This document shows positions 40,340 to 64,000 of a DNA stretch of 64,000 nt, piece by piece (the first letter of the stretch is position 1; each line of letters starts with the position of its first letter). The position numbers were made by a program, and so were the translations under genes. A model generated the notes under the pieces. The model saw only the letters and a program-made list of their open reading frames with translations, did no database searches and was not told the origin of the DNA. The stretch lies in assembly GCA_946803715.1 (NCBI GenBank), contig CAMPET010000006.1, positions 667,390-731,389 on the forward strand. Reading direction: 5' to 3'. Origin of the DNA: Beroe ovata. Taxonomy: Eukaryota > Ctenophora > Nuda > Beroida > Beroidae.

Positions 40340-40815
40340 GATGGAACCTAGGAGAGGGAAGAAGAGGTTGTTCAGATCACAAACAATAATTTCATATCTG
40401 ATTTATATCAGGGGCTTGTAACTATAGGAATTATTGCGATCATTGCAACAATAAAAGAATATAGAACCAGCTTATGACCTAAATTCAAGAAAGCAAGAGG
40501 TTGAGCTAAAAGTTTTATACATCTTCAATGTACATTAAAACCCACATTTTAATAGACACACTAGCCATGAATATTCAATATATTCATATTGAACGGACTT
40601 TCTTCATGCTTGCGTCATGAACATTTACTCCCAAATCAGTGTATTGAGGAGTAAACTATTTTCCCAGTTACTGAGGTCAAAACACAGACCGTACGGCTGG
40701 CGCTTGTGTATGTTTCCACCGAAAATCGTCACTACCACAGTTGGAAATAAAACCAGCCTATGATAAACACCGTAGTCAAATGACAAAGTCCTGGATATCT
40801 AAAAACACACAACAA

Positions 40816-43800: not shown

Positions 43801-44217
43801 ACACGTGGTGTCGGGTTACTCACTATTCTCGTCTGCAATGGCCAAGTTTGCAATCTGAACCGGGGCCGTGAGAATGTGATCTGATCCGTTAGAGGTGGGT
43901 ACATGGAGTGAGGAGAAGAGGGTATCGCACAGCTTCATAACCTTTCCCTCCTTGACATTGGGACAACCGTTCATCAGGAAGGGTCCAATCATTTCATAGA
44001 GATCCTCCGACCTGGGAATTGCATCATGAGTTGAACAGCGATCAAAGATCACACAAATTATAGGGTTACACGTGCTGACTGCTCATTGCGAATCACACAC
44101 ACTTTACACGTACGATGTTAAATCTTCCACTGTAGTTTCGTCCCCTAGCATCCCAACTACATAATCCTTGATGCACGGATCGAGATCCGGGAGAGTGGTC
44201 TCTATCAAAGATTCCAT
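40816..44217 (-). CDS. ABCF3: ABC-F ATPase ABCF3, 11 coding exons
   Basis: Soluble twin-ATPase without membrane domains. Its yeast homologue Gcn20 works with Gcn1 on ribosomes to activate GCN2. Exons: 44217-44114, 44011-43824, 43662-43493, 43400-43267, 43108-42990, 42795-42661, 42566-42498, 42411-42255, 42104-41359, 41233-41120, 40979-40816, joining to 699 aa (human 709). The N-terminal region reads [20 protein letters not shown]1 has Walker A GRNGYGKS, signature [15 protein letters not shown], Walker [10 protein letters not shown] and switch VISHD. NBD2 has [32 protein letters not shown] and VMVSHDERL. The ABCF linker lies between them ([14 protein letters not shown]). All catalytic motifs are intact. 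The gene reads head-to-tail into EIF2S1 477 bp downstream. Confidence 0.97.
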
Positions 44218-44518
44218 GCCCACCTATAACAGGAGACAAGGGTTATCATAAGGGTATAACGTGTCTCAAATAACATACAGTTCATCACTACCTATTTGCT
44301 GCAGACTAAAACCTCTGGTACTAGGTTCAGTTTCCGATAAGATAAGACAAAACAAGCTAACCGGTAAATAGTGTAAATAATAAATTAAAACGAGATGTCC
44401 TACAGTATCATCTGAATAACAGACCTATATAAGTTCATGGTATGAATAGTGTCCTATAGACTTATAGAGGTTTCATTTGAGATGTGATATATGGAAGAGG
44501 GTCACAAAATCCTCTCAA

Positions 44519-45353
44519 TCACTCCTCCTTCACAACAACATCACTGCCCACAGGTTTCCTGCTGGCTCGGTACTTCAATCCAGATGGCAGGTCCCCGGCC
44601 CGGGGAACAGGCTTTGCTTCACACTTGATGGGAATCTCAATCTTGTGTCGGAGTGTCAGTTGTCCTTGGAGAGACACTGGTCCACTATCGGCCACAACAG
44701 TCCCACAACACTTCTTCTGTACCACCAACTCTGTTGTCTGAGAGTCGAGAGAGGATGGTTAGTATGGTTTTTTGGTTAATACATAATATGCGATTCATAA
44801 TATTCATCTTGACACAGAAATGTAAGGAGACTATAAAAAACTGACCTCGTTTAAGGAGATAACCTTGTTTTTCTTGAGCCGGAGCTTCTTGCCATTCAGC
44901 TCTTTCGGATCAATCTGAAATGTTTCATCATCATGTACATTGTACAATGTACATAATACATATGCCATTTGCATTGTGGGAATCATTACGGATATTGCTG
45001 TTCACCAGTTTTCTAAATGGTGATTATCATTACCCCTGGCGGTATCTGTATGAGCCACAGATCACAGCCGTCAACATTGCCTGATTTCACTATCGGAGCA
45101 AACTGTGGGGGTGGCACATACCTGAGATAGGTTGATATCATTGAGACCCGTGGGCATGGAACATTACTACACTTGCGTATCAAGAATAATGGAAAAGTTA
45201 ACTTACTTTCGTGATACTTTTTCTTTCTTAACCTGATAATTCCCAATGATGAATCAGTCGGAATATATTTGTGAATTTTCACCTACAGAATATATGCACT
45301 ACATTGCAAGATGTAATTGCAAGCACAAACATTGAAAAGAACATTACCTTCAT
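44519..45353 (-). CDS. POLR1G: POLR1G-like RNA polymerase I subunit (PAF49/RPA34 dimerisation domain), 5 coding exons
   Basis: Exons: 45353-45348 (ATG AAG only), 45282-45233, 45121-45034, 44914-44846, 44737-44519, joining in frame to 143 aa. The core YVPPPQFAPIVKSGN, GCDLWLIQIPPGI and DPKELNGKKLRLKKN resembles the RPA34/PAF49 beta-barrel (elements such as ELWLIQAP and FNGR-PL in vertebrate POLR1G), which pairs with POLR1E on Pol I. The long Lys-rich tail of vertebrate POLR1G is missing; only a short KEE end remains. The family call rests on a short motif and is moderate. The first coding exon lies directly behind the stop of the 76-aa gene, in the same exon. Confidence 0.55.
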
Positions 45354-45359
45354 GATAGC

Positions 45360-45590
45360 TCAGAGAGTTTTGTTCTCTCCGAATTGAGGTGATGCCAAAT
45401 GTCTTTCAATTATCTTTTGTCTAACAACTTCCTTTCTCTTCCGATTATAGTAGATTTTCATGTACACCACTGAGCTAACAGAGCCAGCGAAACAAAATCC
45501 CCAAAATGTAAGCAGTCCTTTCCCAGAGTTGGCAAAGTTCCAGAGTCGAACTGGTATTGACGGCTTGTTTACTGATACCTTCCCATCCAT
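45360..45590 (-). CDS. 76-aa single-pass membrane protein, shares an exon with the POLR1G-like start
   Basis: Not recognised. The sequence has a short N-terminus, one hydrophobic helix (about residues 25-45, GLLTFWGFCFAGSVSSVVYM) and a strongly basic tail (KIYYNRKRKEVVRQKIIERH). This is the shape of small mitochondrial inner-membrane or ER assembly factors, but no family can be named. Its TGA (45362-45360) is followed six bases later, in the same frame, by the ATG of the POLR1G-like CDS, and the next splice donor is behind that ATG. A transcript spliced there would carry both frames. Confidence 0.6.
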   Translation of the reverse strand: MDGKVSVNKPSIPVRLWNFANSGKGLLTFWGFCFAGSVSSVVYMKIYYNRKRKEVVRQKIIERHLASPQFGENKTL

Positions 45591-46097
45591 GGCAACATAG
45601 TATCTGAATGCAATTTACAACCAGCTTGAGAGAAAACGATGTTTTCATTTGATAATCGTTCAGCAAGAATCATTCATTTATAATTATATGACGTTGCCTC
45701 TGAGAACAAATTATGAAATTTCTTGGCCACATTCACAGCACGAAACAAAACATCAAAACCCGGAATAAAATAGATATACAGATAACAAACATACTTCACT
45801 ACAGTAGAACAGATAAATCTATAACCAAAACTTTCAAATATTTCATACAGATATTCTCAACTCGCGAATAAAACATTATTAAAACTGATTCTTGTGCAAC
45901 CTTGCTGTCAGGGAGCAAGCATTAAACCCAGTAAAATCTGAAACTTTATAGAAGGTGTCACAAAACTGAAGTTCTATAGTTTATCCCTCTGTATTGTGGT
46001 TACAACTGTTGCAGAAATAAAATTAACAAATAGTTAAAATGAAAAATTTCCAATTTATGAATTCAAGTATGAATTCCAAAATGCACACTTCATCAGT

Positions 46098-46271
46098 TTA
46101 TTTTGAGGTGATATACTTCAGGAAGCCAAGGAGGACAATAATAAAAGCAACAAAAACTGGGATGCCACGAGAGAACATCTTTGAATGCCCATCTTTGATT
46201 AGTGCTCGCCTTTTCTTTTTGTCACTGGCAGTGTCTTTTTTGGTCTGAGAGTTTGCCTTGTACTTGGGCAT
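46098..46271 (-). CDS. SMCO4: SMCO4-like 57-aa membrane microprotein
   Basis: A 57-aa frame from ATG at 46271 to TAA at 46098. The N-terminal half is very basic and hydrophilic (QTKKDTASDKKKRRALIKDG). It is followed by one hydrophobic helix (GIPVFVAFIIVLLGFLKYI) and a short end. Length (human SMCO4 is 59 aa), layout and the KK-[DE]-T-x2-DKK-x-R motif fit SMCO4, a single-pass protein of unknown function. The family match rests on that motif and hydropathy only. The 65- to 69-residue plus-strand frame here is its shadow. Confidence 0.6.
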   Translation of the reverse strand: MPKYKANSQTKKDTASDKKKRRALIKDGHSKMFSRGIPVFVAFIIVLLGFLKYITSK

Positions 46272-46559
46272 GAATGCTGCTAATTAAAAGTGATAAGACT
46301 TTGGTAATGGAACATCTTTAGGATGCCAGCATAGTATTGGTATATGATTCCAATGAATGCAAAAATTAAGCATCAATTTACAATTTCTCTAATAAGTCTC
46401 CCTAGAATGATATCTCTCATAAAGTTAATCCTCTAATAATTAATGTTAAATAACCAGCATCAATGGCAGATACTTGAAAGTAGATCCTTACTTATGAAAG
46501 GAGACTTCCTATTTAAAAATTTGTTTTAAAATACAAAAATTAACATCAAATTTGAATAT

Positions 46560-47038
46560 TCATTCTGATGGCAAAATCATATTGATGGCTTCAATTATTT
46601 CAGCAACTATTGGTTCATTCTGATAGTGTTCAAGAGCCAATTCAGGCTCTTTTGCAGAATTGATCTCCATGATAATTTGCTTTAGATGTTTATTACCTGA
46701 AACAATGCTATCTTCAATCTTAGAAATAAGTTCTCATCAAAACTAGAAAAACTTTTGAATTGCTGAGAGCAGGAACATAACAATGAAAGGTGCTTACCAA
46801 GAAGACTTTTCACCTCAGGACAATTAAGCTTGCGGAGTTGATCTGTATTGAGTAACTCTAGATCATCGTCTGAGTCAAAAGGAAGGGGCTGCTCCTTTTT
46901 CTTGTTGCTAATGAATTGTCTTTCTTCCACTTTTTTCTCACATACATGATCTTTATAACAGGCCACAGAACAATATTTAAGAATACATTTTGGACATTTG
47001 TATTTCCAAACTGTATCAGAACAAACTTGACACTGCAT
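46560..47038 (-). CDS. ZNHIT3: Zinc finger HIT protein 3-like, 2 coding exons
   Basis: ZNHIT3 (yeast Hit1) acts with NUFIP1 in box C/D snoRNP assembly in the nucleus. Exons: 47038-46798 and 46696-46560, joining to 125 aa (human 155). The HIT-type zinc finger is at the very start: CQVC, CPKC, YCSVACYKDH then C, with eight Cys/His ligands. A charged linker with DSDDDLELLNTDQL and the helical C-terminal NUFIP-binding region (KSLLGNKHLKQIIMEI, EPIVAEIIEAI) follow. Met at 47038 is chosen because the finger starts right after it; upstream Mets lie in apparently non-coding sequence. Confidence 0.85.
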
Positions 47039-48216
47039 GTAGTAGAGATAGCTACTATTGAAGAGCTGAATTACCCTATAGGTGTTAACTTCAATGGCTA
47101 TCAATACTATAGCATACTGCAATACCCTTGCATATTATAATAGCCTCTATACAAAAGATATGAAAGGTAAGGATATGCCAGCATTGCAATTGCCAATAAC
47201 TCCTATTCCTTTGCCATTTGATCTCCTAGTATAATTATTGCATTGTCCATTTGACCTTACTTTTATGGTATTGAATCATGATGAATATGGATTATATCTT
47301 GTCTAAAAACCTGTCCAAGGGGCATGATACAGTGATACACCAAGCATATAATTAAGTAAGAAGTGGTCAAGTAAAATTATGAAGGTATAGGTAAGGACTG
47401 ACCACTAATCTTCATGTAATACCGCTGACTGGAAATAAGTTTGAGCGGGCGCAACGAAATTCTTGACAGGGACTATTATCGATTGCCTGGCGATGCAAGC
47501 CGCGAGCGCCAGCGAGAATAATTATCTGAGAATAATTTACGGCGCGCGCAATGAAATTCTTGACAATGGCTATCATCCACAGCCAAATTATCGATGGACA
47601 AGTAAGCACTTGTCAGATGACGCGGCGCGCACGCTAATTACGCGTAAGCGCTTGAATTTCATAGCCGTTATACAAGAAACGCATGTGGCGCTGGCGCGTG
47701 ACTGCAAAAATCACCATCGAGGAGATTTTAGGAGACTATTGCTATTCATAAAAATGACAAATGTCACTCATTTAATTGTAATTTGAGAAAATTATTGATG
47801 ATTAAAATGTAATATTATAATGACCGACCAATAAGGACATAATCGGTACTATTACCAAAAAGTAAATAAGATGAAATTTCATACCAATCCCTACCAATAG
47901 CACCTATAAATCAAAAGTACCTATAAATCAAAAGTACTTAAATTCACTTGAAAATACCGAGGAGTGTCCACATGTTAAGAAAACGGGGAGAAAACGTCCG
48001 AATGAGCAGCGGTACCTATCTAATAGGATGTAGTGTCTCAATCACATAACTTAGCCAATGTAAAAATTGTAGATGATGTCAAATGAAGTGAAAACTTTCA
48101 TTCATGATCCATGTTGTTGATTCAGTCATAGTTTATCAAATAGATAAATAGGTGCCAAGAATCATTTTATGACGTATCGAAAACACAATACATAACGTCT
48201 CTATTTATCAATGACG
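47039..48216. other. Intergenic region with two GC-rich repeat modules
   Basis: At 47425-47480 and 47515-47575 the AATAAGTTTG...GAAATTCTTGACAGGG...TATCAT module of the dispersed family occurs twice, followed by GC-rich sequence to about 47700. The remainder is AT-rich with no gene seen. Confidence 0.6.
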
Positions 48217-49149
48217 TCACCGAGCATTATTGCCGAGAACACACCTCCGGCAGAAGTACTTCCTCTTGAAGACAGGTGTCCGCTCTTTACCAACACTCCA
48301 GTTGGATGGACACTCTGACTCTGCAAGGCCTCGCAGCTCCCCACTCTCGTCAACCGTAAACGGTACTAATGTCAGCATTGATCTCTCCAATTTGAAACTG
48401 AAGTTCTTGTTGCAGTTTCTGTGCAATTTCCTATTCCGTTTTACCGCATACTTGCTACTTCTCCCCTGACCTTCTGAGGGCGCAGGTGGCGGGGCAGGTT
48501 GTGTTGGGGTGGGGTGAGACGGGATGAGTGGTGGCGGGGTAGGTTGGGCAGGGCGGGGTTCAACACTACTCTCTGAACCCGCAACAGTCTGAAGGGCAAT
48601 CTCCGCATTTTTAATCCGCAACATCTCTTGTCGGAGAGATTTCCTAGTCACAAACACTGATTCAGGCGGCTTATCAGGAGCTGTCTTATTCATACACGAG
48701 GCATTATTCGCAACTGATCGATTCCTGTTCCTGGTAATTCTCACGTCTGCCCTCGCTTCGCTATCTTCACTACCACCTTCCACCTCGCCACTGCTGACAC
48801 CACACGACTTGACACTGCTGACACCACACGACTTGACACTTGACACATCCTCCCATGATGATGATTCCTGGCTGTTATCCGACTCACTGCCCTCAGTCCG
48901 TTTCCGTTTGCGGGACGCGGCGTGTTCACGGAGGGCGGAGTAGATATCCGTCACGCCATCCTTAAGAGGGATGGCGTGAAGACGGGTGTTGTGTCGGTTT
49001 ATCTTGAGACGCTCTGCCACACCCAGCATATCATCACCCGTCTTGGAGCGAACTCTGTCGATAACCTCACTCAGAATGTCGGAGAGAATTCCTGTGGTTC
49101 GATCACGGAGCACATTCGTCGATTGTCCGCCGTCAAACAATAGTTCCAT
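48217..49149 (-). CDS. Unrecognised 310-aa basic, low-complexity protein
   Basis: Single exon, TGA at 48217. The N-terminal 80 residues look folded and helical (GILSDILSEVIDRVRSKTGD, GVTDIYSALREHA). A KRKR nuclear-localisation-like motif and an acidic Ser-rich stretch with WEDVSS follow, then an exact tandem SSVKSCGV duplication and a Pro/Thr/Gln-rich segment (QPTPPPLIPSHPTPTQP). A conserved-looking C-terminal block ends KRKYFCRRCVLGNNAR with a CxxC pair. No family recognised. The sequence suggests a nuclear protein. Codon-level order and length support a real gene. A further upstream coding exon cannot be excluded. Confidence 0.6.
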   Translation of the reverse strand: MELLFDGGQSTNVLRDRTTGILSDILSEVIDRVRSKTGDDMLGVAERLKINRHNTRLHAIPLKDGVTDIYSALREHAASRKRKRTEGSESDNSQESSSWEDVSSVKSCGVSSVKSCGVSSGEVEGGSEDSEARADVRITRNRNRSVANNASCMNKTAPDKPPESVFVTRKSLRQEMLRIKNAEIALQTVAGSESSVEPRPAQPTPPPLIPSHPTPTQPAPPPAPSEGQGRSSKYAVKRNRKLHRNCNKNFSFKLERSMLTLVPFTVDESGELRGLAESECPSNWSVGKERTPVFKRKYFCRRCVLGNNAR

Positions 49150-49646
49150 TTCTCACTACATGGTCCTAGTGATGAGAAATGGGGTAAAATTGTCGTGAAT
49201 TGGAGCAATATGAATCGTAACAATCTGTGATGTAACAGGGTATCGCACACAACAATCAGCATATTTGGCAGTCAAGAGATACAGTCAAATGGTAATCGCT
49301 TATTTCCCCCGATTCACGATCTTATGATAGGACTCTCTTGACGTATTGATCAGTCGAACGAGCGATTTAACTTCCACTTGAGTACCAAATTATTGATTAC
49401 AGCATCTCGGTACAGATCATTGCTACACAAAACCACAAAATCATTATCAGGATAATCTAAGTCATTGGATGAATCTCAAAAATGCAGAAAGGAAATCGAG
49501 GAACAAAAAATCGTATAGTACCGTAGGCATGACCATCAATTCCACAATTCCATTTCCATAATAAGTTAAACCAAGATAAACCGACAAATCATCATACAAG
49601 AACTCAAGAAGAGAACATATTATCCTATACGCTATCCAGACCAATA

Positions 49647-50326
49647 TCACCGAATGTCACTGAATGAGTCGGGAACAGTGAACCTCGCCCCCTCCAAGTC
49701 CCTGGTAATGTCTATCTGGCAAGCTAATCGAGATGTATCAGTTAGTCCCGCCGCACTGTCTAACGTATCTAACTCCTCCTCCTCAGCCTCTGGCAACAAG
49801 CCAAATGTCGGGGAGTCCGCTATCACGTGACAAGTTGAACACTCACACATTCCTGAAACAGAATTATCAATACCCTCAATAACTTCAAGTTTGTCAGAAT
49901 GTCAACCTTTGGGCATTATTGATGAGGAACGAGACGGAACTCAGTAAAAATAGGAATTAGGAACTCACCACCACACACACCAGGCAAATTTATTCGATTG
50001 TCCTTTGCCGTCTCTAGCAGAGTATCTCCCCGAATAGCTTTCACACTCCTCTCAACTCCTGCATGTGCGAGGGCTCATCAACAGTAAAACAGACCATAAC
50101 AGTAAACATCTACAGTGAAACAGACCAATCACTCACAGATATATAGTACGGTACGACAGAAAAACAGTGACATGTACTACAGCTGTACCATACACTCACC
50201 CTTCTCCACAAAGATGACATTCACATTTAGAGAGGGCGATGAGTGAAGACTACCGGCTTGGCTTGTCAGGATGGCAGTCTTCCGACAGCAGTATCTCTGT
50301 GCCATTCGGCGTATCACCGCACTCAT
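49647..50326 (-). CDS. FDX1: Mitochondrial [2Fe-2S] ferredoxin (adrenodoxin family), 3 coding exons
   Basis: Carries electrons from ferredoxin reductase to mitochondrial P450s or the Fe-S assembly machinery. Exons: 50326-50200, 50058-49969, 49852-49647, joining to 140 aa. An Arg/Ser-rich presequence without acids (MSAVIRRMAQRYCCRKTA) is a mitochondrial targeting signal. The fold follows: VNVIFVEKGVERSVKAI, GDTLLETAKDNRINLPG. Cluster ligands are in CGGMCECSTCHV (C-x5-C-x2-C) and SRLACQI. The C-terminal ELGAR-type strand ends in SFSDIR. GLTDTSRLACQI looks FDX1-like while DLEGARFTVP looks FDX2-like, so the paralogue is open. A truncated allelic copy of exon 1 lies at 50631-50720. Confidence 0.88.
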
Positions 50327-50629
50327 TCTAACAAACACATTCTTACCACAAGATCAACAGCCACATTTTATCACCATTGTTTTCAATAATTTCATAATTA
50401 TGATAGTTCAGGGAAATAGAAGAATCAAAATTACAAAGCAAATGAACAAGACTTTCAATAAAACGGCATATCGTAACGAAGACTAAGTTTAAGAACATCT
50501 TCAGCTCTTCAATCATCAACATATTACCTAATGGGCTCATTGTATTCAGAAAAAAAGTCAACAGTCTAGTGTCATCATCCTGCTGAGATATGCAATTCTT
50601 CCATCACCGTTTTCTCCACTTATAACGAG
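50245..50629. repeat. Allelic duplicate spanning ferredoxin 5' region, copy 1 (ends at single N)
   Basis: Matches 50631-51023 with scattered differences. It begins inside ferredoxin exon 1 and ends inside the MRPS9 stop region at CTTATAACGAG, exactly at the N at 50630. Copy 2 begins inside ferredoxin exon 1 and continues into intact MRPS9. Overlapping, unmerged contig ends are the simplest reading. Confidence 0.88.
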
Positions 50630-50997
50630 NGAAGACCACCGGCTTGACTTGTCAGGATGGCAGTCCTCCAACAGCAGTATCTCTGTGCCATTCGGCGTAA
50701 CACCGCACTCATTCTAACAAACACATTCTTACCACAAGATCAGCAGCCGCATTTTATCACCATTGTTTTCAATAATTTTACAATTGTGATAGTCCAGGGA
50801 AATAGAAGAATCAAAATTACAAAGCAAATGAACTTTCAATAAAACGGCATATCGTAACGAAGACTAAGTAACGAAGACTTAATTTAAGAACATCTTCAGC
50901 TCTTCAATCTTGAACATATTACCTAATGGGCTCATTGTATTCAGAAAGAAGTCAACAGTCTTGTGTCATCATCTTGCTGAGATATGCAATTCTTCCA

Positions 50998-52194
50998 TCA
51001 CCGTTTTCTCCACTTATAACGAGCTCGAGCGTTCTTCTTGCCCGCCTTATCATACTCTTGCCTCAGCGATTTTCTGTAAACAGGCTTCAGAACTTTATGA
51101 ATACCAGTATTATACTGCTTGAGACAATCAGCTATGGACATGGATACACAGTGAGCCATCATGCGTCCCTCAACATCCCCTCCCTCCACTACCTGTACAT
51201 CGACATCAAATACTCCAAGTGTTTTGGACAGACGGAGTGGTGAGATCACGATCATTCTGGCGAGCATACGCGGGAAGAAATCAAGATAAGACTGTCCGTT
51301 GATAGAGATTTTCCCAGAACCCGGAATCATAGTTGTTTCAACGCTACTGAACATAAACACTCTGGATACCTTAGCTCTGAACGGACGGTTTGGAACAATA
51401 ACCTGTTTTTCTTGCTTGATCTCAGAGCGCTTCTCCGTCTTGGTGTGACCAGGCATGATCAAACTTTCTAAAATATGATGGTAATACCTTATTAGATCCG
51501 GCCGGTCCTTAATAAGGTCGTTTAATCGACGGAACTGTAACTCCATGATTGCATCTACATCCCTGTTGCTCGTTGTCTCTGGAACGAAGGGAAATTTGTA
51601 GACCGATTGCGATGGCTCTGTCTCACAATCCTCGTCCATTTCCTCAGCAAGGGGAAGAATCGGCTCATCTCTATCGATGTACATCTCGAGTCCCGAGCTC
51701 ATTTCGATCTGTTCCTGTGCATGCAAGTTAGCGCTGTGAATCAACCGTATTTTATTCCTGTTCGCCTTATCCTTAACGGAAAAACCATGAGCAGACTTTT
51801 CTGAAGTGTACTCTGCAATAATTCCGAATATATCCTTCACAGGAAGCTCAGGGAGCACCGAAGGCTTGTAATCTTGTTTTTGAATGTCTGAAGGGAATAG
51901 ATAAAGCATGCTAAGCTGAAACTCCCGCTGGGTCAAAAGCTCCGGTTTGATACCCATTAACAGGGCAATATTTGACCTCGTAACCTGCACCTTATAGTTT
52001 ATTTCAGCTTTATTGAATGTGGTCTTCTCATAGGCAAGCATGTCACCCTTGAGCTCCTCTATAACTGGTCCCGGCACGTTGTTCCATTTGAAGAAATCTC
52101 TCCCTCGTTGGATCGGCCAGCTGACTGTCACAGATGATCTAGTACATATATTTGATAAAACATCAGTGTAAGGAAGGCGTCTGAGAAGGAACAT
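50998..52194 (-). CDS. MRPS9: Mitochondrial ribosomal protein uS9m
   Basis: Component of the mitochondrial 28S subunit. The 398-aa frame (human 396) has a basic N-terminus, a long lineage-specific region (residues about 30-265), and the uS9 fold at the end: FRAKVSRVFMF, GSGKISINGQSYLDFFP, DVDVQVVEGG, then helices and the basic tail. The last residues, ARARYKWRKR, reproduce the uS9 C-terminal tail that reaches the P-site tRNA. Single exon. Only 276 bp separates its start from the DDX47 stop. Confidence 0.9.
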   Translation of the reverse strand: MFLLRRLPYTDVLSNICTRSSVTVSWPIQRGRDFFKWNNVPGPVIEELKGDMLAYEKTTFNKAEINYKVQVTRSNIALLMGIKPELLTQREFQLSMLYLFPSDIQKQDYKPSVLPELPVKDIFGIIAEYTSEKSAHGFSVKDKANRNKIRLIHSANLHAQEQIEMSSGLEMYIDRDEPILPLAEEMDEDCETEPSQSVYKFPFVPETTSNRDVDAIMELQFRRLNDLIKDRPDLIRYYHHILESLIMPGHTKTEKRSEIKQEKQVIVPNRPFRAKVSRVFMFSSVETTMIPGSGKISINGQSYLDFFPRMLARMIVISPLRLSKTLGVFDVDVQVVEGGDVEGRMMAHCVSMSIADCLKQYNTGIHKVLKPVYRKSLRQEYDKAGKKNARARYKWRKR

Positions 52195-52469
52195 GAAGAG
52201 TGCATACAGATCTGTAGAATAGAGTTACCATTAATCAATCATGTTTGGAGCATCGAACGTAAACCTGGAACATGAATCGTACACTTGCTAATTAACATTC
52301 AAATAATACCAGGATATCTTCATCTAACAGAAACCAGATTTGTTTCGCAATAAAAGATCACATGAAATAAAAAATCGCTGCAATACTGATGATGATATTA
52401 TTGATATTATTCAGCTGATTCAAGTTTACATTAGCAAATGGATAAAATGAAGAGGTGCCCATAGATTGT

Positions 52470-53816
52470 CTATATTTTATTCCTTTTCTTCTTTTGATTC
52501 CCAGATATCGGCCCTTTCCTTTTTTTAGCACTGTATCTTTTTGAGATGCCATTTTCCTCGTTATCAGGAGTGTCCTTCAGCTTACCTTTCTTCGTTTGCA
52601 TATCTCTCAACTCAGTATGAGCTATGTGTTTGGCTTCATTTACCCGCTCTTGCAAGATCATAGCTTCTTCATCTACAGTCGGAAACTTAGGAAGCTTTTT
52701 CCCAATCAAAAACTCGATTCTCTGATAAAGTTCGACATCATACTGAGTGACAAATGTGACGGCTTTACCAGATCTACCAGCACGCGCTGTTCTCCCGACC
52801 CGGTGGATGTAGTCCTTGGAATGGGTGGGGATATCGTAGTTTATAACAACATCAACATGGGGAATATCTAATCCTCTGCTGGCAACATCTGTTGACACCA
52901 AAATAGAATAGTCGTTTGATTTGAATTTGTTGAGCGATCCCAATCTTTTATTCTGACTCATTTGTCCATGTAGAGGAATGGCATTGAGGCCAAGGTTTCT
53001 AAGGACTATAGAGATCCTGGTGGTGTTTGAACAGGTACTACAAAATATCATGAAGGAATTTCCAGCGAGCTCATTTAGGATATAAACCAAGTAACACTCC
53101 TTAAACTTCTGAGGTATAAAGATATAGTATTGCTGCAACTTATCAACAGTAGAATATTTGTTGGCGACCTCAACTTTGACAGGATTTTGGAGTGATGCAC
53201 GTTGGAGTTTCTGTACCTTTTTTGTCATTGTAGCAGAGAATAAATAAGTATTCCGCTCCTTGGGGATAATGCTTAAAATCTTATCCACCTCATCCTCAAA
53301 ATCCATGTTCAAAATTCTGTCAGCTTCGTCCATCACTAAAAACTTCAATGATCTCAGATTGAAACCTTTGGTATTTTCTAAATGGTCAACCAATCTTCCA
53401 GGGGTAGCAATGACAATATGAGGCTTTTTTGCAAGCATGATCGACTGAGTCATCATGTCAATTCCGCCAATTATAACGGCACATTTCACTCCAATAACAG
53501 CGCCAAGGGCCTCGAACTGTTCTGAAATTTGGTAAGCCAGCTCTCTAGTTGGTGTAAGGACTAAGGCAAAGAGGCCCTGCGGTGTGTTCAACAGGGACTG
53601 CAATATAGGAAGCGCAAATGCACCAGTTTTTCCACTACCAGTTTCGGCAAGCCCAATGACATCTTTCCCTGCCAATGCAACAGGAATAGCTTCAACTTGA
53701 ATCTTGCTAGGCTTAGTCCACCCTAACTGTTTACAAGAGGAACACAGTTCCTCAACAACTCCAAGTTCAGCAAAGCTTTGTGGATCAGCACTGTCGGATA
53801 CTTCAGGAGCAGCCAT
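52470..53816 (-). CDS. DDX47: DEAD-box RNA helicase DDX47
   Basis: Nucleolar helicase for 18S rRNA processing (yeast Rrp3). 448 aa, human 455, one exon. Motifs in order: Q motif GWTKPSKIQ (32-40), I AETGSGKT (57-64), Ia PTRELA (89-94), Ib TPGR (138-141), II DEAD (163-166), III SAT (194-196), then [12 protein letters not shown] and [12 protein letters not shown] Lys-rich tail ([18 protein letters not shown]) serves as a nucleolar signal. All catalytic residues are intact. The first Met gives the family N-terminus MAAPEVSDS with [11 protein letters not shown]. Confidence 0.96.
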
Positions 53817-54162
53817 CCAAAATTCAAATACCTGAACAGGGGATAATAATACTTCAATTATTCATTTAGAATGGAATGCCGAGAAAGATACGCCCAAAAA
53901 AATTCCTAAAACATCAGTGCAAAGTGGAGAAACATCTAATAAATGGTCTGATATGAGAGCTTTGAAATTATTCTCTGCTTCTAGCAAATTCATGATTGCA
54001 ATGACAAATAATTGATAAAGCGGTATTGATGGTGAAAAACAATTCGGTGAATTTTTGAAAAGGACACAAGAAAAATACATTGAGAATGGAATCAAGTATC
54101 GAATTAAGTATATTATGCAATTTATAAGTTTATCTGATGGGGTCGAAAAGCTGACATCTTTG

Positions 54163-55743
54163 CTACCTCTTACACTTTTTTGATGTCCATTGTTCATACG
54201 TTAATAATGCTAAGTCTAACTGGTCACTAAGATGTTTCAAGCATTTTGCATCTTTTGAAGGAAGGCGACTCATTGCATCTTGGAGGGTTATATTTTTACA
54301 TTTGAGAATGCTTTCGGCCATTCTGGTAAGTTTATCTTCTAAAGTCGAATTAGTCACAGGGAAACAAGTCCAGAAGTGACATAAAATTTGGGATGAGTTC
54401 AAATAGCATAGCCGTATCTCCTCTAGAGATGAAGACCCAGGCTTAGGAGCATGGTTTGAATTACATGCTTTACCTCGATCTGAAATGTCCATAACAGTTT
54501 GGTAGGCTTTGTTGGGTAAAATGCTTTCATGTAGCTTATGCATGGAAAAATTCTTTAACTCAGCTCTTGTTCTCTCAAGTGCATTGACAGCTTCTTCTTT
54601 AGATTTCAAATAACTTCCACTGTCAGTAACCTGTGATCTGGATAATTGGAGAGGAATATTGCCCTGCCTTTCAGAAATGACAAGATCATTTTGAGAAGTC
54701 AACTCTTTCAACTGCTCTTTTTTAACTATATGAATTGTTTTATCAGAATTAAGATCGGTCTTGGCAAAGTTCTGGCAAATCATAAACCCATGGTGGTTAT
54801 ATTTACGGACAAGTGGCTTTTCTCCAGGTTCAGCTGTAGATTGTTGCATGACACCATATCCATCATCTTTGAAGAATGTATTAGGGTCAGAAATATCCAA
54901 TAATGGATCTCGTTTATCCATTAAGAACTTCTGCAAAGATGTTTCCTCATCTTCATGGGCAAGATCAAGAAAGATATCATTCTTTTGGGAATTATTTGTT
55001 TTATTTTTGTGAAAATATTGAGATTGGAAGAAAGATGTCCAGAATTCTTTTTCATTAATTTTGCTTGGGACCAAATCATGATACCGCCTTTTTATCATAG
55101 GATATGTATGAAATATACTTTGAATAATTTCTGGTGTAAGGTTGTATTGAATAGCATTACAACCGTCAACTTCAGGTCTAGCCTCTGATAGAAAAGCAGA
55201 TGAAATGCCAACTGGCTGTAATTGATTCTGCTCAGCCAGCAACAAAGTTTCTGCCTTTGGAATCGACCAGAAGTCTTCAGCTGATATTATTCCACCACTC
55301 ACAAGAGTCTTGTACATGACAAACATTTCTTCTGAATTCTGTAGAATCTTCTGTTTCATTTCCAGTTCTTTGCTTATTTGCTTTTTTGAAGGCTCTTCTT
55401 TAAGATTATTTTTCTTTGATTTCATGAGCAGTTGAACTAACATTTCCTTCACCTTTTCTCTTTCAGGCTTCTGCATCTCAACAACAGGGTTATCAAAGTG
55501 AAATGTGACAGCTGTGTCATCATGAAGAACAAGTTGAAGTCTCACTTTAGCAGCTGAATCAGGACTAATACGCTGGGCTTTTATTTGATTATATTCATAT
55601 TGAACTGCAGGAGAAGCAGGAACATCAATATGATTCCATATCAATCTCTGAACTGTTATGAAAAGGGTCCCATTTTCCTTCTTATATTTCACACTTTTTA
55701 TTTCTAACAACACATTCTCTCCACAATTCAGCCATGGGAGCAT
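54163..55743 (-). CDS. GTF2H1: TFIIH core subunit p62
   Basis: Core TFIIH subunit in Pol II initiation and nucleotide-excision repair; its PH domain binds TFIIE, XPC and activators. 526 aa (human 548) in one exon. PH domain at about 12-108 (YKKENGTLFITVQRLIWN, VRLQLVLHDD). BSD1 at about 135-185 (GIISAEDFWSIPKAETLL) and BSD2 at about 220-255 (NEKEFWTSFFQSQYFHKN) each have the FW pair. The C-terminal helical bundle contains LNSSQILCHFWTCFPV, typical of p62/Tfb1, and ends LLTYEQWTSKKCKR. The start MLPWLNCGENVLLEIKSVKY sits directly on the PH domain, so no upstream exon is required. Confidence 0.95.
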   Translation of the reverse strand: MLPWLNCGENVLLEIKSVKYKKENGTLFITVQRLIWNHIDVPASPAVQYEYNQIKAQRISPDSAAKVRLQLVLHDDTAVTFHFDNPVVEMQKPEREKVKEMLVQLLMKSKKNNLKEEPSKKQISKELEMKQKILQNSEEMFVMYKTLVSGGIISAEDFWSIPKAETLLLAEQNQLQPVGISSAFLSEARPEVDGCNAIQYNLTPEIIQSIFHTYPMIKRRYHDLVPSKINEKEFWTSFFQSQYFHKNKTNNSQKNDIFLDLAHEDEETSLQKFLMDKRDPLLDISDPNTFFKDDGYGVMQQSTAEPGEKPLVRKYNHHGFMICQNFAKTDLNSDKTIHIVKKEQLKELTSQNDLVISERQGNIPLQLSRSQVTDSGSYLKSKEEAVNALERTRAELKNFSMHKLHESILPNKAYQTVMDISDRGKACNSNHAPKPGSSSLEEIRLCYLNSSQILCHFWTCFPVTNSTLEDKLTRMAESILKCKNITLQDAMSRLPSKDAKCLKHLSDQLDLALLTYEQWTSKKCKR

Positions 55744-57209
55744 GACCTACAATCATAACACAATAATTAATTTGAAAGAACAAACTAAACATGTAATCCA
55801 ATATGATCAAAGTCAAAAACACATACATTTATCCCATGAACATTCATGACTACAGACAGTTAACACACTTCCTTGAATTGAATTGATTTGAATAATTTTG
55901 ACATGAATCAACTCTAGTATTCACTGAAAACTGATCCCTACAAGACTTCACTAGTAAGTACCCCAGTCTGGGCACCCAGTATAAAACATTAATATAACAA
56001 CTTATTGCGTTAAACTTACATACTTCAATGAATAAGAACACTGTACAACAGTGTGTGACTTCTTGAATTGAATTGTTTTGACATGAATCAAAACTAATTA
56101 GTAAGAACCACCAAAATCTTTTAGGAATTCGGTTATCAAATTTTGCACTCGTACTAAATTCATCTCCCTAATTTTTTGAATATTATTATTTTTGTCTCTT
56201 TTTCTGTATTAAAACAGGCATGCAATGAACCGACATATTTTCGAGCGCTGATTCCGAATCACCCCATGTGATGTAGGGTAAAATAAAGGCTACCCTTGTC
56301 AATCGATGATAGACCCTGTAGAGAATTTCGTTTCGCGCGCGCGCGGCGTAAACTTATTCTCAGTTCGCGGCTTGCATCATTGTAGGATTTTACCCTGCCG
56401 TCGGTGCGCGCGATTTTCAATCCGCCAGCAAGGGTAGGGTGAAATCCTACAACTTGCATCAATGCATCAGCAGTCTGGCATCGCCCGACAAAGTGGGCCT
56501 AAATGCCAGCTGGCATTTAGCCTAGGCTCTTATAGCATCGCCAGGCGCCCAGGCAAATCCGATCCCGCTGCAGCGATTAGGTCATGGGCACCATGATTGA
56601 TGATAGAATAGTATCACTGTATCATGGCAATGCAAATGGCATGATACATCTGCAGACCAATAGATAGTTTGTACAATTAGAATAATTTTTTACCTGATCA
56701 ACGTGAACAAGAACATCGAGTTAAAATCAATAAACCACCAACAAGGAAGCTCAAAATCTGGACCAAGGCCAAGTGACCCAAACTTAAATAGCCAAGAAGT
56801 TAGAAAATAAACCTTCTAATAGTTCAAATTACAGGCGTGAACCAGTTTTATAGTAGCACTAACTGTCTTACTGACTTACCACTAATGCAGTATTCAACTA
56901 TTCATCCGGTGCAGTTATGATAGTTTCACATTGTACATGAATTTTCAAATATTAAAAACAAAAAGCGTCCACTAGAATCACGAAAAATTGTATTTGAGTC
57001 CTATTATTGATTAATTTGCTTCGGTAAATCAAGGATAACAACGAACCAGCATACATAATACAAAACATGGGTTCAACTACGAGCAAAAGCACTAAGTTCG
57101 TCCATTTGCCGTGTCACAATATCCCTCTTCACTCTATCGCAGGGAATTCTGCTTATTGTGACAGAAACGAGACAAATTTAGAAGTTCATACACAACTACT
57201 GAGACTTCG
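55744..57209. other. Intergenic region with GC-rich repeat and inverted-repeat element
   Basis: Holds the upstream flank of GTF2H1 and the 3' flank of the kinase gene. A reversed copy of the GC-rich repeat family at about 56290-56560 carries a 73-bp inverted-repeat insertion at 56380-56452. Two AATTGAATTGATTTGA-type direct repeats lie near 55875 and 56065. No gene seen. Confidence 0.65.
56380..56452. mobile_element. 73-bp inverted-repeat element with 9-bp target duplication (copy 3)
   Basis: Begins TTGTAGGATTTTACCCTGCC and ends GGTAGGGTGAAATCCTACAA. It is in the opposite orientation to copies 1 and 2 and is internally shorter. Flanks are CTTGCATCA on both sides, an exact 9-bp duplication. 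Confidence 0.87.
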
Positions 57210-60200
57210 TCACACATTGAGACTTCTTCTGAGAGCTGTCAACTCAGTTCGAATGGTTGAGTCCGTGAAGCATAAGTTTAGGGCATTCTTGATCTGACAA
57301 GGCCATAACGAATTAGCCATGTAGGATGGTGTGTAACTCTGCAAGTATTCCACGATGTTCTCACAGAATTTCTGCATAAAACCTGGACTTTCTTCTGTAG
57401 TGTGGTCCTCCGGCATCAACTGAGGATTTCCATGATGTTGATCTTGATGCACGATTTGGAAACAGTTCAAGTGCATACATGCGCGCATCATATATATCTC
57501 GAACGCGCGCATAAATTGCGCGAGGACACCCAAAATATAGATTTCGCGCCAGCCATTAAAACCTACGATTAGAGTTTAAAAGTGTGGCACGGTGGCAACA
57601 ATTATAGTCTCAGTCACACTATCGATATTATAACACTATTATATCAGGCAATTGTCGGAAGATTAAGATCGCTTTGCCAGATAAGATTGTACATACCTCG
57701 ACGTAAACAGTAGAAGTGGAGAACATTTGTAAAAGTAGAATGCCAAACATCCAGCTGTCAGCTTTGCTATTCAAATACACTTCTCGCTGCTCAAGCAAAC
57801 CACTTAGCACCTGGGAGAGAGGTGATATATCAGTGACGACCACGGCGTCACACACAAACACGCACACACGCACAAACATACACACACACGCACAAACACA
57901 CACGCACAAACACATACACACACAAAAAGCACTGGAAGCCGTAATACTGTAATAATGCGAACCTGTCAGCTAGAGTATCTACAGAGAAAACATAATATAA
58001 ACCGTGTGCATAAACATCACAACACTTGATAAGAGGAATTTCAGTACAAAATTTGGAACTTCAGTTATAGTGTCCAATACATGATATTATGGCATGTGAA
58101 GTACTGATATGTGTGTGCTGTTGTACAAAGATATGACCAATATGCTAATAAACTCCGAAACTATGGAAACCGCCAAAAATATGATAACTTCACTATTAAT
58201 TTCGCAGCGTTTATACTTTCCTGGGAGGCGTGAATCCTGTGGATATTTTCGCCCTGCACCGACTTATTATAAGCAGACATAGCACAGATCCAATTATAAT
58301 TCATCATTGATTTCTAACCTCTGGCGGGAAAGTGACTATGTTCCTTGAATCAGCTTTGTCCAATGATACAGAGCTGACAATTCCTGCGTTAGCGATCACA
58401 ACGCAGTTGCTGGTTCGAAGCCAAACTGTGGGAGGTCATTAAGTGATTATCAAGGAGATCATAAAATGACTATCAAGGAATCGAAACCGTGGGGTTCCGT
58501 ACAGACCACTCTGTCACAGAAGTTGATAGCCTAATCACATACACAGGAAACTGAGACATACACAAACTGAGATACATACATACGGACTGTTTATCACACA
58601 GAGACACATGCAGACATACTCATAAGCCAACACGATCTCACGAAAATACACGCACAGTACACGCACACAAACACACAATCCCACAAACAAACACACAGAC
58701 ACACATTGACACGAAAACTACCTTTGAATGATAGGGGATAAAAACACTCCACATCACTAAGCATTTGACACGTTTATTATTAGCTGTTGTTCAGTAGGCA
58801 ATATTAGAATATTATTTGTACAACACACACTCACACTATACACACACACACATAATAGACCATACTAAAAGCAGTTCACGCAGCTAACTGTTCCCTAGTG
58901 ATTAGACTATTTATAGACACTTATGGTACCTACAGTTTGTAAATTATAGAAGATGTGTGTTTGTTTGTTTGCTCTTTTGTGTGTGTGTGTGTGTGCGAGT
59001 AAGTGTATGAGTGAGTGAGTGTGAGTACTCTATGATTATCATTGAATTATCATAAAATATTCAACCAGCACATTATATTCTCATATATTAAGGCAAATAA
59101 GACAGTGTCAGCAAAGTGATGGCAGCAACAACGACAAACTCTTATACGGTGTTCCTGGTAACAGGTAACTATCACATGACACTGGTACAACATGAAATTG
59201 TTATTTGTTAGTGTGCTAATTACTATAACATGACACTGTTAGCGTTCTGGATTGTATCATAAAAAGACAACTGAAGTACTGTAGAAGTGCAAAACAGACA
59301 GAGGCGAAGCTTAGGAGAGCCTTGGTATCCTTCGAGATAATAAGTTGATTGGATAATGGCAGGACTATGATCGATGATAGGATGTAATTGTATGCTGTGA
59401 ATTCGTAGTCAGTAATTCATATACTTATCAACACATTACGGAGAGAGGATGTGAGTTAAATTGGTTCCTCTTCACGGATAAATCATCCCGTGGAAGTGCC
59501 CCAAGATGCACTGTACACTCAGATCTATACCACAGGTCACAGTATAGTTCATATTGTATAATGCCACGGACCCATTCAAACAATGTGCACACTGCACAGA
59601 GCAGCCCACTCAGTTTTACAGTTACTCATAATACATTGCAGCTGAGGTATTAGTAGAGTAGTGAGGGCAAACAATATTAAAACGTGACGAGTGTACCAAC
59701 ACACTGAGCACTTGAGTACACGTCTTCCTAACCAATGAGTACAATACATGTCATCATATTATTAGCAATGACTAATGGGTAGTGAGTAGAATACATGTCA
59801 TCATATTATTAGCAAGTGCATACCGTTATGAATCGAGAGGGACCCATGGATAATCTTCTGAGAATGCAGGAAGATCATTCCTTCCAGTATCTGTACTGCA
59901 TACACGAACTTTTTCTGAAAAAATAAGACTCGTATAATCGTATAGAAGTATAGAGTGAAAATATATCTACGGTATAGTGATACTATGTTACTATAGAGTA
60001 TAGAAGTGTAATATAGGTTGGACGGTTGGTATGGTTCCGAATTTTATCGCGAAATCAGGTTTAATAGGTACCTCAGGTTAGAAGCATTATATCGATTTGA
60101 AAATAAAAATATCTGATAGTGAATAGTGATATGTTACTACTATAATAAGTATAATAGTAGTAGAACATTTAATTGCGGGAAATACAATATATAGTTGTAC

Positions 60201-63200
60201 CCTGCCTTGGATTAATTTGCTATTTTAAACTGATAATTTCTGATAAACAAGTTCTTAATGAGACTATAAAACATGGTACCTTGAAATTGTCTGCCCTTGT
60301 AGAGGTACAGTAACTGAACAAGGTTCCTTTAGAATGAACTGGGGCAGCAGTGTAAAGTATATTGGAGGCAGTGTGTGCGTAGCCGACCAACTGCATCAGA
60401 TGCCTGCATTGGAGATTGTGTGTGTGTGTGTATGTGTGTATGTGTGTGTGTGTACTGTGTATGTGTGTATGTGTATATGTGTGTGTGCGTGTCTTTGTAA
60501 TTTTAACACGAACGTGTTAAAACATTCTCCATTAATAACGAAGCTCTAGATAAGTAATTATTATCAAAAATCACGCCACCGTCCGTCTTGTACGTGCGCG
60601 CCACCTGTGACCTATAGAATTACTTTCCTACGGTGATAAGAGGACGCAATGTCATCCAATGCCGGAACGTGTGTGTGTGTGTGTGTGTGTGTGAGAGATG
60701 TTGTGTGAGTGTGTTTGTGTATGTGTGTTTGTGNNNNNNNNNNNNNNNNNNNNNNNNNNNNNNNNNNNNNNNNNNNNNNNNNNNNNNNNNNNNNNNNNNN
60801 NNNNNNNNNNNNNNNNNNNNNNGTGTGTGTGTGTGTGTGTGTGTGAGTGTTCATGTGTGTGTTCTTGTGTGTGTGGGGGAGGGGGCAGCTGTACCTGTGT
60901 TTCAGTTTGGGAAGAAGGGTCAGATATTTCGTGACATCATCTACTTGGTGTCGGTACACTGTCAGTTTGTCGTACGGAATGTCAGGATCACAGTTCTCCA
61001 CATCCAAACTTTTCTCTGAGAAATGGTCAATAGGTAAATCAGAAATTATATTGAGCACTAATAAAGACGTGTCCCCTGACTGAATCTCACCAGTGAAGGT
61101 GAAGGGGTCGAGAAGTTTTGGGGATGGAACGTTCATGAGTGGCATGGTCTGTAACGAGAATGTTCCAGTCTCGTGTTTCTTCACCGAATAGATACTTTCA
61201 CAATCTACCGGCTGCATTTCTGGCATTCTCTGAAGGAAATGCAAGAGGTCATTTCCAATCATCAGAAACCAGACGTTAAGTTCTGTATGGAAGGGCGAAG
61301 TCCTTGAAAATTTTCATCAGAGGTCCAATTTGTTCCCCCCCTGTCTACGTGCCTGTTCTTGGATAGCCAAGAACTTATAGGGTTGTTTTCTTATTCAAAA
61401 GATAGGACAATTATATACGTAGGTACTCGAGAAGACAACTTATTCAGCTTTTCGTATCACTGAAACTCGATGGAAAATACCTTAGGTGCCTCGGAGGGGT
61501 CGAAGTAGACAACATTTGACTTGATGTAGTTGACAATACTTTTGAAGTCCCATCGTTCTCTCTTGCGTAGCCAACACTTCTGTAATGAGTGTGAGTTTAC
61601 AAGAAGGATGGTGTGATTGTTGAATAATAATATCAATACGTCAATGTGGCGATTTGATCCGATAAATGTATTGTATACGTAAGGATTGAGATACGTTGTC
61701 TCATTTTACGATCGAGATTGAAAATATCTCAAGTCTCAGGATAATTGATTACACACAATCTCAACAGGTTCATCAATGTTGCATACGCCTAGCACGTTCG
61801 GTATTATAATAAGACGTACCTACATCCATTCATTAACACCAAAAAGCAGGGGTCTGGAGGCGACAGCCTTCAGAAGCCAGAGCCTCCGACTTAAATATAC
61901 AGAATGCTAAAAAAACTTTAGATCTAGATTTTGCACCGTCATATCAATGAACTAATGTAGCCAAAACAGTCCATGCAAATTCATTGTAGTCAATCACTTC
62001 AAAACAGTAGTGGTCTGGCTGGTCTGGGCGCAGCCATAAACCAATTGTCGAGAAATTCGTCAAGAGTGACAGGACTCAATGGAATAACAGGTTACACACA
62101 GGTTCTCTCATCGCTCAACCGTATTTTCACAAATGAAAGTAGCAATGGAGACTCACCCCTACCGTTTTCACTAATTCTGTCAACAGACAGTAGGGGTCCC
62201 GCGCCTATTTTACGAAAATTTCCGCAGACGGAGATTTCCGCAGGTTTGCGCTTTTTTGGCTAGGTATGGCACGGGCATCATTATAACTCCCACCTTACCA
62301 TGGGCACCACTTTTCTTCATTTTCGTTGGTGAGGGGGCATAAAAAATCTTTTCTTTGATGTAACGCTCTCAGCGTTGTAAAACTATTAAAACGTTTCGAA
62401 AATTAGCAATAATTCATGACTTCTTATATGTTTGGTTTATCTTGAGGTATGGCACCCCATTATCCATCTTAGTTATTAATGTCTTAGTTTAGAATTTATA
62501 GGTTCATACTTTCATAGAGATATATTTACATACAGCTGCTATACAACATACTATCATAGATGTTAGAGTGGCCGGGAAAGCTCAACACTGCAATACGTGT
62601 GTGCTTATCTATGGTACGTAGCGAAGAAAGCTAGATAGCTCTCTATAAGTATGATAACAAATATGAACCGTAGATGTCAAACAGCCCTGTTTAAGGAGTA
62701 AAGCAATTGGGCGTACCCTTTCCAAAGACAGATCGACGCCGGGGATCATCTTATTTGTGAGTTTGTTAGCAGGGTGGAAACAATACCCACCAAGTCTAGC
62801 AACGTTTCAACATCATCACTGAGACCCAAACGGGGCATAATTGTTACTTTGCTAGTTCGAGCAGCATCACAGGTCGTGTATGTGTGTGTGTGTGTGTTTC
62901 TCACCTTCATGACATGCTGGAAAACAGGAGGCGTTTCGGGAGGCACGTCGAGGGTTTTTTCCTTGAGAAAATCTACCAGTTTCTGACTGTTTGTAACACC
63001 GTACTTAGCGTAGGGAACCTGTAGCGTAATACGTGTCATAAACACAGGTACCGCGAATTACCGTACCATAATCTACAGGCTGATGTTACATCTGTGTTAC
63101 ACCGCGCAATATGTCACGTATAAACTCCGGATGATAACAAACCTACCTCGCCGTAGGACCACATCTCAAACATGGTTACTCCGTAACTCCAAACATCGCA

Positions 63201-63611
63201 GTACTTGTCGTATTTGAAGTTGTTGGAGAAAAACTCGGGCGAGTACGAGAGGTACGGGAGACCGCCTTTGCTGGACTTTTTGACAGGATAGTAGTAATCT
63301 GCATCCACATCCTGCTTGATTGATCGATCAATGGATCGATCGATCGATTGATTGATAAGTTGATTGATTGATTGATTTATTGATCGATCGATCGATTGCC
63401 TGATTGATTAATTGATCGATTGATTGATTGATTGATTGATTGGTTTGTTGATATAACGCACCCTGGTTAGACCGAGGTCAGCTATCCTAACTTTGGTAGG
63501 GTTTTCCACCAATATATTCCGGAGGGCCAGGTCCCTGTGTACGAAACCACTGCTACTCAAATACTCCATTCCTTCGGCGATTTGGAGTCCAAACAGAATG
63601 AGTCGTTGTCT
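57210..63611 (-). CDS. Tandem tyrosine kinase plus pseudokinase (3' part of gene, 10 exons)
   Basis: Exons: 63611-63462, 63311-63147, 63018-62905, 61579-61481, 61229-60895, 60403-60280, 59914-59824, 58425-58319, 57810-57697, 57419-57210 (TGA). Phases match throughout. The first five begin at helix E of a tyrosine kinase: catalytic loop [11 protein letters not shown] for DFG (IADLGLTR, as in ROR kinases), YSPE for [20 protein letters not shown] and [14 protein letters not shown] second kinase fold follows without a break: N-lobe without a VAIK lysine, helix C into [19 protein letters not shown], hinge, then HGSLSIHN for HRDLxxxN, VVIANAG for DFG, FPPE for [37 protein letters not shown] and stop. 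The second domain lacks every catalytic residue. The N-lobe of kinase 1 and any receptor part lie beyond the window. Subfamily unclear. Confidence 0.8.
58426..59823. other. 1.4-kb intron of the kinase-pseudokinase gene
   Basis: CA/TG-rich short arrays (58550-58700, 58820-58850, 58975-59025) and a direct repeat of ACATGTCATCATATTATTAG near 59745 and 59790. No exon that fits the kinase frame was found. Confidence 0.6.
60734..60822. other. 89-base assembly gap in a TG array (kinase gene intron)
   Basis: N run bounded by GTGTGT on both sides, between exons 60895 and 60403. The phases of those exons (2 bases plus 1) join directly as KHR-HLMQL across the kinase fold, so no exon need be missing. 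Confidence 0.9.
63312..63461. repeat. 150-bp kinase-gene intron made of GATT/GATC repeats
   Basis: Between kinase exons 1 and 2 the intron consists almost wholly of TGAT / CGAT tetranucleotide repeats, leaving only the donor, a few bases and the acceptor as unique sequence. Confidence 0.85.
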
Positions 63612-64000
63612 CTGATGTGTGAGAAGGCAATTATTCGAGATTACACCTCAAATTTCATACCCTTCCAGAAGAGATTTAACTAGTATTTCTCCAATTACCG
63701 ATAAGCTGTAGCCCGAAAATTCTTCACGACTCAGATTCTACGTAACCAAATAGGGCTCCCACTATTATACCTATTTAAATGAAAGGCATCGGATTTGGGG
63801 CGTGGGCCTTATAAAAGGTCCTCAATTTTAGATTGTGAGAAATTTCACGCACTTAGATCCTATCCCGATTCCCGGACGTCGTTTTGAGTACATCTAGCAG
63901 CGGAATTATCTATGGACACGGGATGCATTCGGAAGTTCTTTCGATATGAACATTCGAAACGGTAGTGATCCGTCATGAGTCACTACCTACCGTTCACTAA

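Follow-up and report, generated by a model that had tools for sequence, protein, structure and literature searches.

A predicted JAK-type protein with an added C-terminal pseudokinase, and probably two alternative heads, in the ctenophore Beroe ovata

The gene described here lies on contig CAMPET010000006.1 (C6) of the 77.8 Mb assembly of the ctenophore Beroe ovata, and a 64,000-nucleotide stretch of this contig (positions 667,390-731,389, hereafter the window) was studied. On the minus strand, window positions 63611-57210 contain ten reading-frame blocks with GT-AG ends, matching phases and a terminal stop at 57210. An earlier note on this DNA had taken them for ten exons joining an N-terminal tyrosine kinase core to a second kinase fold, after which the protein stops. 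The ten blocks do join as counted and the frame does end in the stop at 57210, but the window holds eleven coding exons once block 61229-60895 is split at a mini-intron. The block was split because a 75-bp GT..AG segment is missing from both ctenophore homologs, P0001 (Bolinopsis microptera, annotated as 'JAK2-like isoform X2') and P0002 (Mnemiopsis leidyi ACHWQZ_G012424, 1495 aa). Two other candidate exons, 60326-60280 and 60205-60138, are phase-compatible but were rejected since the homologs do not match them. The kinase core turned out not to be N-terminal: the window edge cuts the gene, only its 3' part lies inside, and six further exons are located upstream on the contig. These sit in the next 20 kb, the first one beginning 7.8 kb beyond the window; the largest measures 1964 bp, and the last two of the five smaller ones hold the kinase N-lobe (GAGNFG, VAVK). 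The full model consists of 17 exons, all bounded by GT-AG and agreeing in phase, with a single stop at the end, and encodes 1496 aa. The features are given below in gene order, together with a second head exon; coordinates are those of the window unless the contig is named.

contig 739710-741679, minus strand: head A exon
contig 737260-739223, minus strand: head B exon
contig 736592-736856, minus strand: exon 2
contig 735935-736216, minus strand: exon 3
contig 735581-735763, minus strand: exon 4
contig 735316-735456, minus strand: exon 5
contig 731929-732150, minus strand: exon 6, carries VAVK
63612..64000, minus strand: intron 6, 3' part
63462..63611, minus strand: exon 7, tyrosine kinase alphaE and catalytic loop (from sequence, splice sites, phase and a PF07714 match)
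63147..63311, minus strand: exon 8, activation loop (DYYY), APE-motif region and helix F
62905..63018, minus strand: exon 9, kinase C-lobe
61481..61579, minus strand: exon 10, kinase end
61091..61229, minus strand: exon 11, linker with conserved tyrosine (IY[S/T]) and start of the C-terminal pseudokinase
61016..61090, minus strand: predicted mini-intron, 75 bp, GT..AG, in frame, absent from P0001 and P0002
60895..61015, minus strand: exon 12, C-terminal pseudokinase N-lobe (LTVYRH.., helix C)
60280..60403, minus strand: exon 13, C-terminal pseudokinase beta4-beta5-alphaD
59824..59914, minus strand: exon 14, C-terminal pseudokinase alphaE and degenerate catalytic loop HGSLSIHN
58319..58425, minus strand: exon 15, degenerate DFG (NAG) and PPE motif
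57697..57810, minus strand: exon 16, C-terminal pseudokinase helix F region
57210..57419, minus strand: exon 17, end of the C-terminal pseudokinase C-lobe and stop codon

The domain order predicted for the model is FERM-SH2, pseudokinase, tyrosine kinase and second pseudokinase, and Pfam detects three kinase stretches in each of P0001, P0002 and the final model. In an ncbifam scan, all matches of P0002 were under the cut-offs, and head A and head B had none. Judging from sequence, we put at roughly 70% the probability that the locus encodes one JAK-type protein with this order, in which two alternative head exons likely lead into the same tail. From the window alone, the gene had been described as a reverse of the JAK order, with the kinase ahead of the pseudokinase. 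This description is ruled out by the domains found on the contig upstream of the window: a FERM-SH2 module and a JH2-like pseudokinase precede the kinase, so that the usual JAK order is preserved, with the C-terminal pseudokinase added to it. In JAKs, JH1 is the last domain; here a second pseudokinase comes after the kinase, and we therefore call the protein JAK-type with an added domain rather than a standard JAK.

The FERM-SH2 assignment comes mainly from profile comparison. A profile of 13 heads (six of head B, four of head A, two of a second JAK-like locus, C29, and one of a third, C266) was compared with a profile of the first 520 residues of 20 JAK-type proteins, picked by name or by Pfam domains and in part unnamed. 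The two profiles matched with a probability of 98.6% (P 7e-16, 374 columns), and nine head controls (one reversed, five column-shuffled and three unrelated families compared with the true heads) reached at most 0.5%. Three unrelated families gave 4.4, 0.1 and 0.1% with the JAK profile. Taken as subsets, head B, head A and the C29 heads scored 93.1%, 91.8% and 97.0%, respectively. In a Foldseek search with a low-confidence AlphaFold model of the head-A ortholog P0121, PDB ranks 1-7 were all JAK1 or JAK2 structures; since matches of poor models can mislead, this result is taken as support only. The first pseudokinase has a Pfam kinase match and carries HGC (head B) or HSL (head A) in place of HRD. 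It stands directly N-terminal of the kinase, as JH2 does in JAKs, and in a 29-row tree the first pseudokinases cluster with JAK JH2s (support 94/82, not starred).

The tyrosine kinase retains HRDLALRN and IADLGLTR in the window, VAVK in exon 6 and the activation-loop motif DYYY, the DFG aspartate being present as DLG, and by these motifs this JH1-type kinase is predicted to be catalytically competent. A linker of about 160 residues separates it from the first pseudokinase. Sequence matches of the kinase query in the PDB are headed by an EGFR tandem construct, followed by JAK1 (7t6f), ZAP-70 and many chains of JAK1/2/3. A tree uniting the ctenophore kinase with the six JAK JH1s in one clade was neither found nor rejected (P value of the approximately unbiased test, p-AU, 0.117).

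Evidence for kinase and C-terminal pseudokinase in one polypeptide comes from the two other ctenophores. The search with the kinase-pseudokinase part used an early model, which included the two wrong short exons and the mini-intron, as did the end-to-end alignment with P0002. Among the best 120 of 159 matches, P0001 (47% identity over 99% of the query) and P0002 (46% over 97%) are the only ones to cover both domains; the other 118 cover at most 55% of the query, the named ones being mostly JAKs and other kinases and many being unnamed. Kinase and added domain are far closer to the Mnemiopsis and Bolinopsis proteins than to any other match listed. Two further searches used queries that stopped where the kinase stops (1197 of 1498 and 1195 of 1496 residues), and the lengths of their candidates are limited accordingly. 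P0002 is collinear with the 1496-aa model end to end and P0001 is collinear over the shared tail. Identity of the final model to P0002 is 46% in FERM-SH2, 50% in the first pseudokinase, 63% in the kinase, 42% in the C-terminal pseudokinase and 30% in each of the two linkers. The proposed domain order was therefore recovered in annotated proteins of two other ctenophores, and the claim that kinase and pseudokinase belong to one polypeptide is supported.

It could be argued instead that two genes lie side by side, one for a JAK-like kinase that stops in intron 10, the other for the pseudokinase, with its start near 61229. Reading through the exon 10 donor adds seven residues before an in-frame stop, so that the kinase may also be the last domain of a shorter form, and exon 11 of Beroe ovata has two early methionines. 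However, both domains reside in one annotated protein in Mnemiopsis and in Bolinopsis. Between the end of the kinase and the KHRHM motif, a stretch that includes the N-lobe of the second domain, P0001 and P0002 contain no methionine (Mnemiopsis has one at the motif edge); a second gene with its own start would therefore be without an N-lobe. The exon 10-exon 11 join is in phase 0 and has a pyrimidine-rich acceptor. We consider two genes highly improbable.

The match of the second fold to a kinase exceeds chance (PK_Tyr_Ser-Thr, E 1.1e-14 with the early model); in this fold, HGSLSIHN takes the place of HRD and NAG that of DFG. It had been described as a complete kinase fold with all catalytic motifs lost. 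The fold and the loss of HRD and DFG are borne out, but completeness is not: by eye neither the glycine loop nor the VAIK lysine can be made out, and the N-lobe is modelled poorly in an ortholog. In the P0001 model, built from a 30-row alignment, the predicted local distance difference test (pLDDT) is mostly about 90 in the kinase and poor in the first linker; in the C-terminal pseudokinase, the C-lobe reaches 65-90 (mean about 80), and ten-residue means in the N-lobe are 36-58. Such an N-lobe, and an identity of 42-46% versus 63% in the kinase, would suit a decaying relic of a duplicated kinase without function. Nevertheless, the conservation of the domain roughly equals that of the FERM-SH2 head (46%), its frame is open in three species, and HRD and DFG are lost in all three. 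Its best conserved 15-residue window is the region of the dead catalytic loop, where 12 of 15 positions are invariant among the three ctenophore proteins versus 34% domain-wide. The preceding linker is poorly conserved yet keeps a tyrosine in 3/3 of these proteins. Decay therefore appears unlikely; the conserved dead loop and linker tyrosine fit a regulatory or docking surface better, as far as conservation can indicate.

As to its origin, we lean towards the added domain being a copy of the kinase rather than of a JH2. In the best 29-row tree it joins the ctenophore kinase with 100/100 support, though its branch is 4.16 changes per column long. Of its six introns, one falls within one column of one of the kinase's five introns and in the same phase, and another pair lies about five residues apart, whereas the first pseudokinase is intronless up to its ..DR end; a single match of this kind is expected by chance about one time in ten by rough arithmetic. 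A JH2 origin is somewhat doubtful, yet it has points of its own: HG-x at the HRD position resembles JAK JH2s (HGN or HGK in 6/7 JAKs examined), and trees in which the added domain falls among the pseudokinases could not be rejected (p-AU 0.237 with all of them, 0.182 with the ctenophore ones). A genome search with the added domain, again from the early model, gave nothing better than E 1.1e-4 outside the C6 locus, and as far as seen the domain is confined to this locus in the genome.

The tail appears to be served by two heads. Head A lies about 0.5 kb upstream of head B and is an intact 656-codon exon that has an ATG of its own. The two heads are 19% identical, and each ends in ..DR followed by a phase-2 donor compatible with exon 2 (AG|GTAAAT in head A). 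By eye, the frames after head A contain no C-lobe before head B begins 486 bp further on. Head A is 67% identical to P0121 and 42-45% to P0123 and P0122, and relatives of head B are 45-62% identical to it, so both heads are old. Mnemiopsis P0002 has head B, and Bolinopsis P0001 starts within head A and continues directly into the shared tail. Its first 111 residues agree at 110 positions with P0122, a single-exon head-A frame that enters an intron at exactly that point. Since one ortholog carries head B and the other head A, it is likely that two heads are spliced to one tail, as the Bolinopsis annotation and the matching splice phases in Beroe ovata would have it. The competing explanation is that head A is a separate truncated gene or a pseudogene and that head B alone feeds the tail. 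Each head has its own ATG, the join of head A to exon 2 in Beroe ovata is a prediction, and part of head A occurs again beside an assembly gap. Against this stand the intact frame of head A and its conservation in the relatives named above, its phase-2 donor, and the Bolinopsis isoform X2, which joins the end of head A to the tail; we regard a defunct head A as quite unlikely. The repeated part, which contains the start of head A and is cut off by 1214 N, belongs to a near-identical 2.9-kb copy (contig 748029-750969 versus 741338-744249, 98.7% over 2941 columns). It is likely an assembly duplicate and was not counted as a head.

Several results weigh against a JAK-type protein of this design. 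A Pfam scan of the model detected neither FERM nor SH2, and the lone C266 head gave no match to the JAK profile (12.9%). In an ncbifam scan, all matches of P0002 were under the cut-offs, and head A and head B had none. The P0121 head model, made from a five-row alignment, is poor (mean pLDDT 36), and its PDB matches would be weak by themselves, support rather than proof. In the Foldseek search with the Bolinopsis P0001 model, the EGFR tandem construct and then mainly SYK chains lead, and JAK chains occupy ranks 6, 18, 30, 42 and 49 of the 50 shown; by fold alone, the modelled kinase is a tyrosine kinase and not specifically a JAK. P0001 and P0002 are database gene models, the former starting inside head A, and the stop shortly after exon 10 has been mentioned above. 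Finally, a STAT_bind profile search of the genome found no match, its control being silent too, and a STAT_alpha search found one weak match in two copies. The copy examined was rejected as a STAT: it is a long coiled-coil open reading frame, PDZ-like by eye.

The genome contains two more JAK-like loci. At C266:46883-53337 there is a JAK-type gene with one head, the C-lobe of a first pseudokinase and a kinase that has VAVK, IHRDL and DLG; the last frame of the kinase ends in a stop. On this contig up to position 62000, a three-sequence profile of the added pseudokinase matched only the kinase and first-pseudokinase exons, the rest being at E 0.77 or worse, and no added pseudokinase was found in this range. 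Locus C29 (86500-91737) consists of two tandem FERM-SH2-pseudokinase heads, both with phase-2 donors, and the next exon, after which follows a gap at 85306-86087. No intact kinase was found at C29 66001-96000, a range that includes this gap and another at 68775-73370. Beside the latter, on the minus strand at C29:73371-73720, lies a degenerate kinase piece with HRN for HRD and NFG for DFG.

Intron 5 contains, on the opposite strand, an open reading frame of 846 codons (L031:949-3486 (+), about 0.86-3.4 kb past the right end of the window) which joins Sulfotransfer_2 and His_Phos_2 in one frame, a nested gene with an unusual fusion. Window positions 39374-55746 carry long minus-strand frames, 6/7 of those scanned matching Pfam (eIF2 alpha, an ABC-transporter type, HIT zinc finger, ribosomal S9, DEAD-box helicase and TFIIH p62) and 1/7 matching nothing. 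These frames look intron-poor next to the 17-exon kinase gene.

Compared with known systems, the protein is closest to the JAK family (JAK1/2/3, TYK2 and Drosophila hopscotch), with which it shares the FERM-SH2 head, a JH2-like pseudokinase directly before the tyrosine kinase and a multi-tyrosine activation loop. It differs from JAKs in the added pseudokinase after the kinase, in the length of the linker before the kinase and in the likely presence of two heads on one tail. The ctenophore kinase lacks the long insert near helix G found in alligator JAK2/JAK3, which is also lacking in tick and mite JAKs. Its orthologs by collinearity, P0001 and P0002, have the same domain order and have lost the same motifs, and are named merely hypothetical or JAK2-like in databases. 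The EGFR kinase-domain duplication construct (PDB 9p9u), which ranks first for the kinase query by whole-sequence E-value as well as for the Bolinopsis model, likewise has two kinase folds in tandem in one chain, but we take it to be a duplication of the active domain without FERM, SH2 or JH2-like pseudokinase. A kinase followed by a pseudokinase is as such already known from plants: the tandem kinase-pseudokinases of the WTK1/Yr15 type are described as a kinase followed by a degenerate one in a single protein that lacks other conserved domains (PMC6170490). The plant proteins are of the serine/threonine type and have no FERM, SH2 or JH2, whereas the ctenophore protein has FERM-SH2 and a third kinase-like domain.

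Unicellular holozoans are reported to have no JAK (PMC8061703). In a tyrosine kinase survey of 2021 the JAK family is dated to chordates, and the main text has 0 occurrences of 'ctenophor' or 'Mnemiopsis' (PMC8662651). A 2026 pathway survey traces JAK to sponges, makes two conflicting statements on coelenterates and lists ctenophores among the lineages still to be included (PMC13203501). Among the open-access literature matches listed, we recognised nothing on a ctenophore JAK, on a C-terminal pseudokinase in a JAK or on alternative JAK heads, most subscription journals and all bioRxiv preprints being outside this scope. According to the databases, the protein is present in three ctenophores, as a JAK with one extra domain and, likely, two heads.

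A mechanism can be proposed by analogy with JAKs, in which FERM-SH2 modules are described as binding receptors and the pseudokinase as regulating the kinase (PMC5394478). On this analogy, the head would bind a membrane receptor, and heads A and B could give two receptor specificities. As long as receptors are not clustered, the first pseudokinase, which is JH2-like, would act as a brake on the kinase. Upon clustering, the kinase, whose catalytic residues and multi-tyrosine activation loop are retained, would be activated in trans. The C-terminal pseudokinase may act on the kinase as a second, intramolecular regulator or as a docking surface, and the conserved linker tyrosine perhaps gates this action. 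Extending this, we tentatively suggest, as a possible rather than a probable scheme, that ctenophores run a modular JAK, with one catalytic tail, interchangeable receptor-binding heads and a kinase gated on both sides by two pseudokinases. If so, choosing an exon would mean choosing a receptor, and kinase output would be controlled by a double brake not known from any other animal group.

JAKs are much-studied drug targets, for which the control of the kinase by the pseudokinase is a central question. A natural JAK whose kinase is flanked by a second pseudokinase on its far side would offer a ready-made comparison for such control. The locus and its relatives also help to fill the ctenophore gap named in the recent JAK survey (PMC13203501). 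Two conserved heads on one tail, if true, would be a way to widen the choice of receptors with a single kinase. If confirmed, the protein would represent a new design of a central signalling enzyme.

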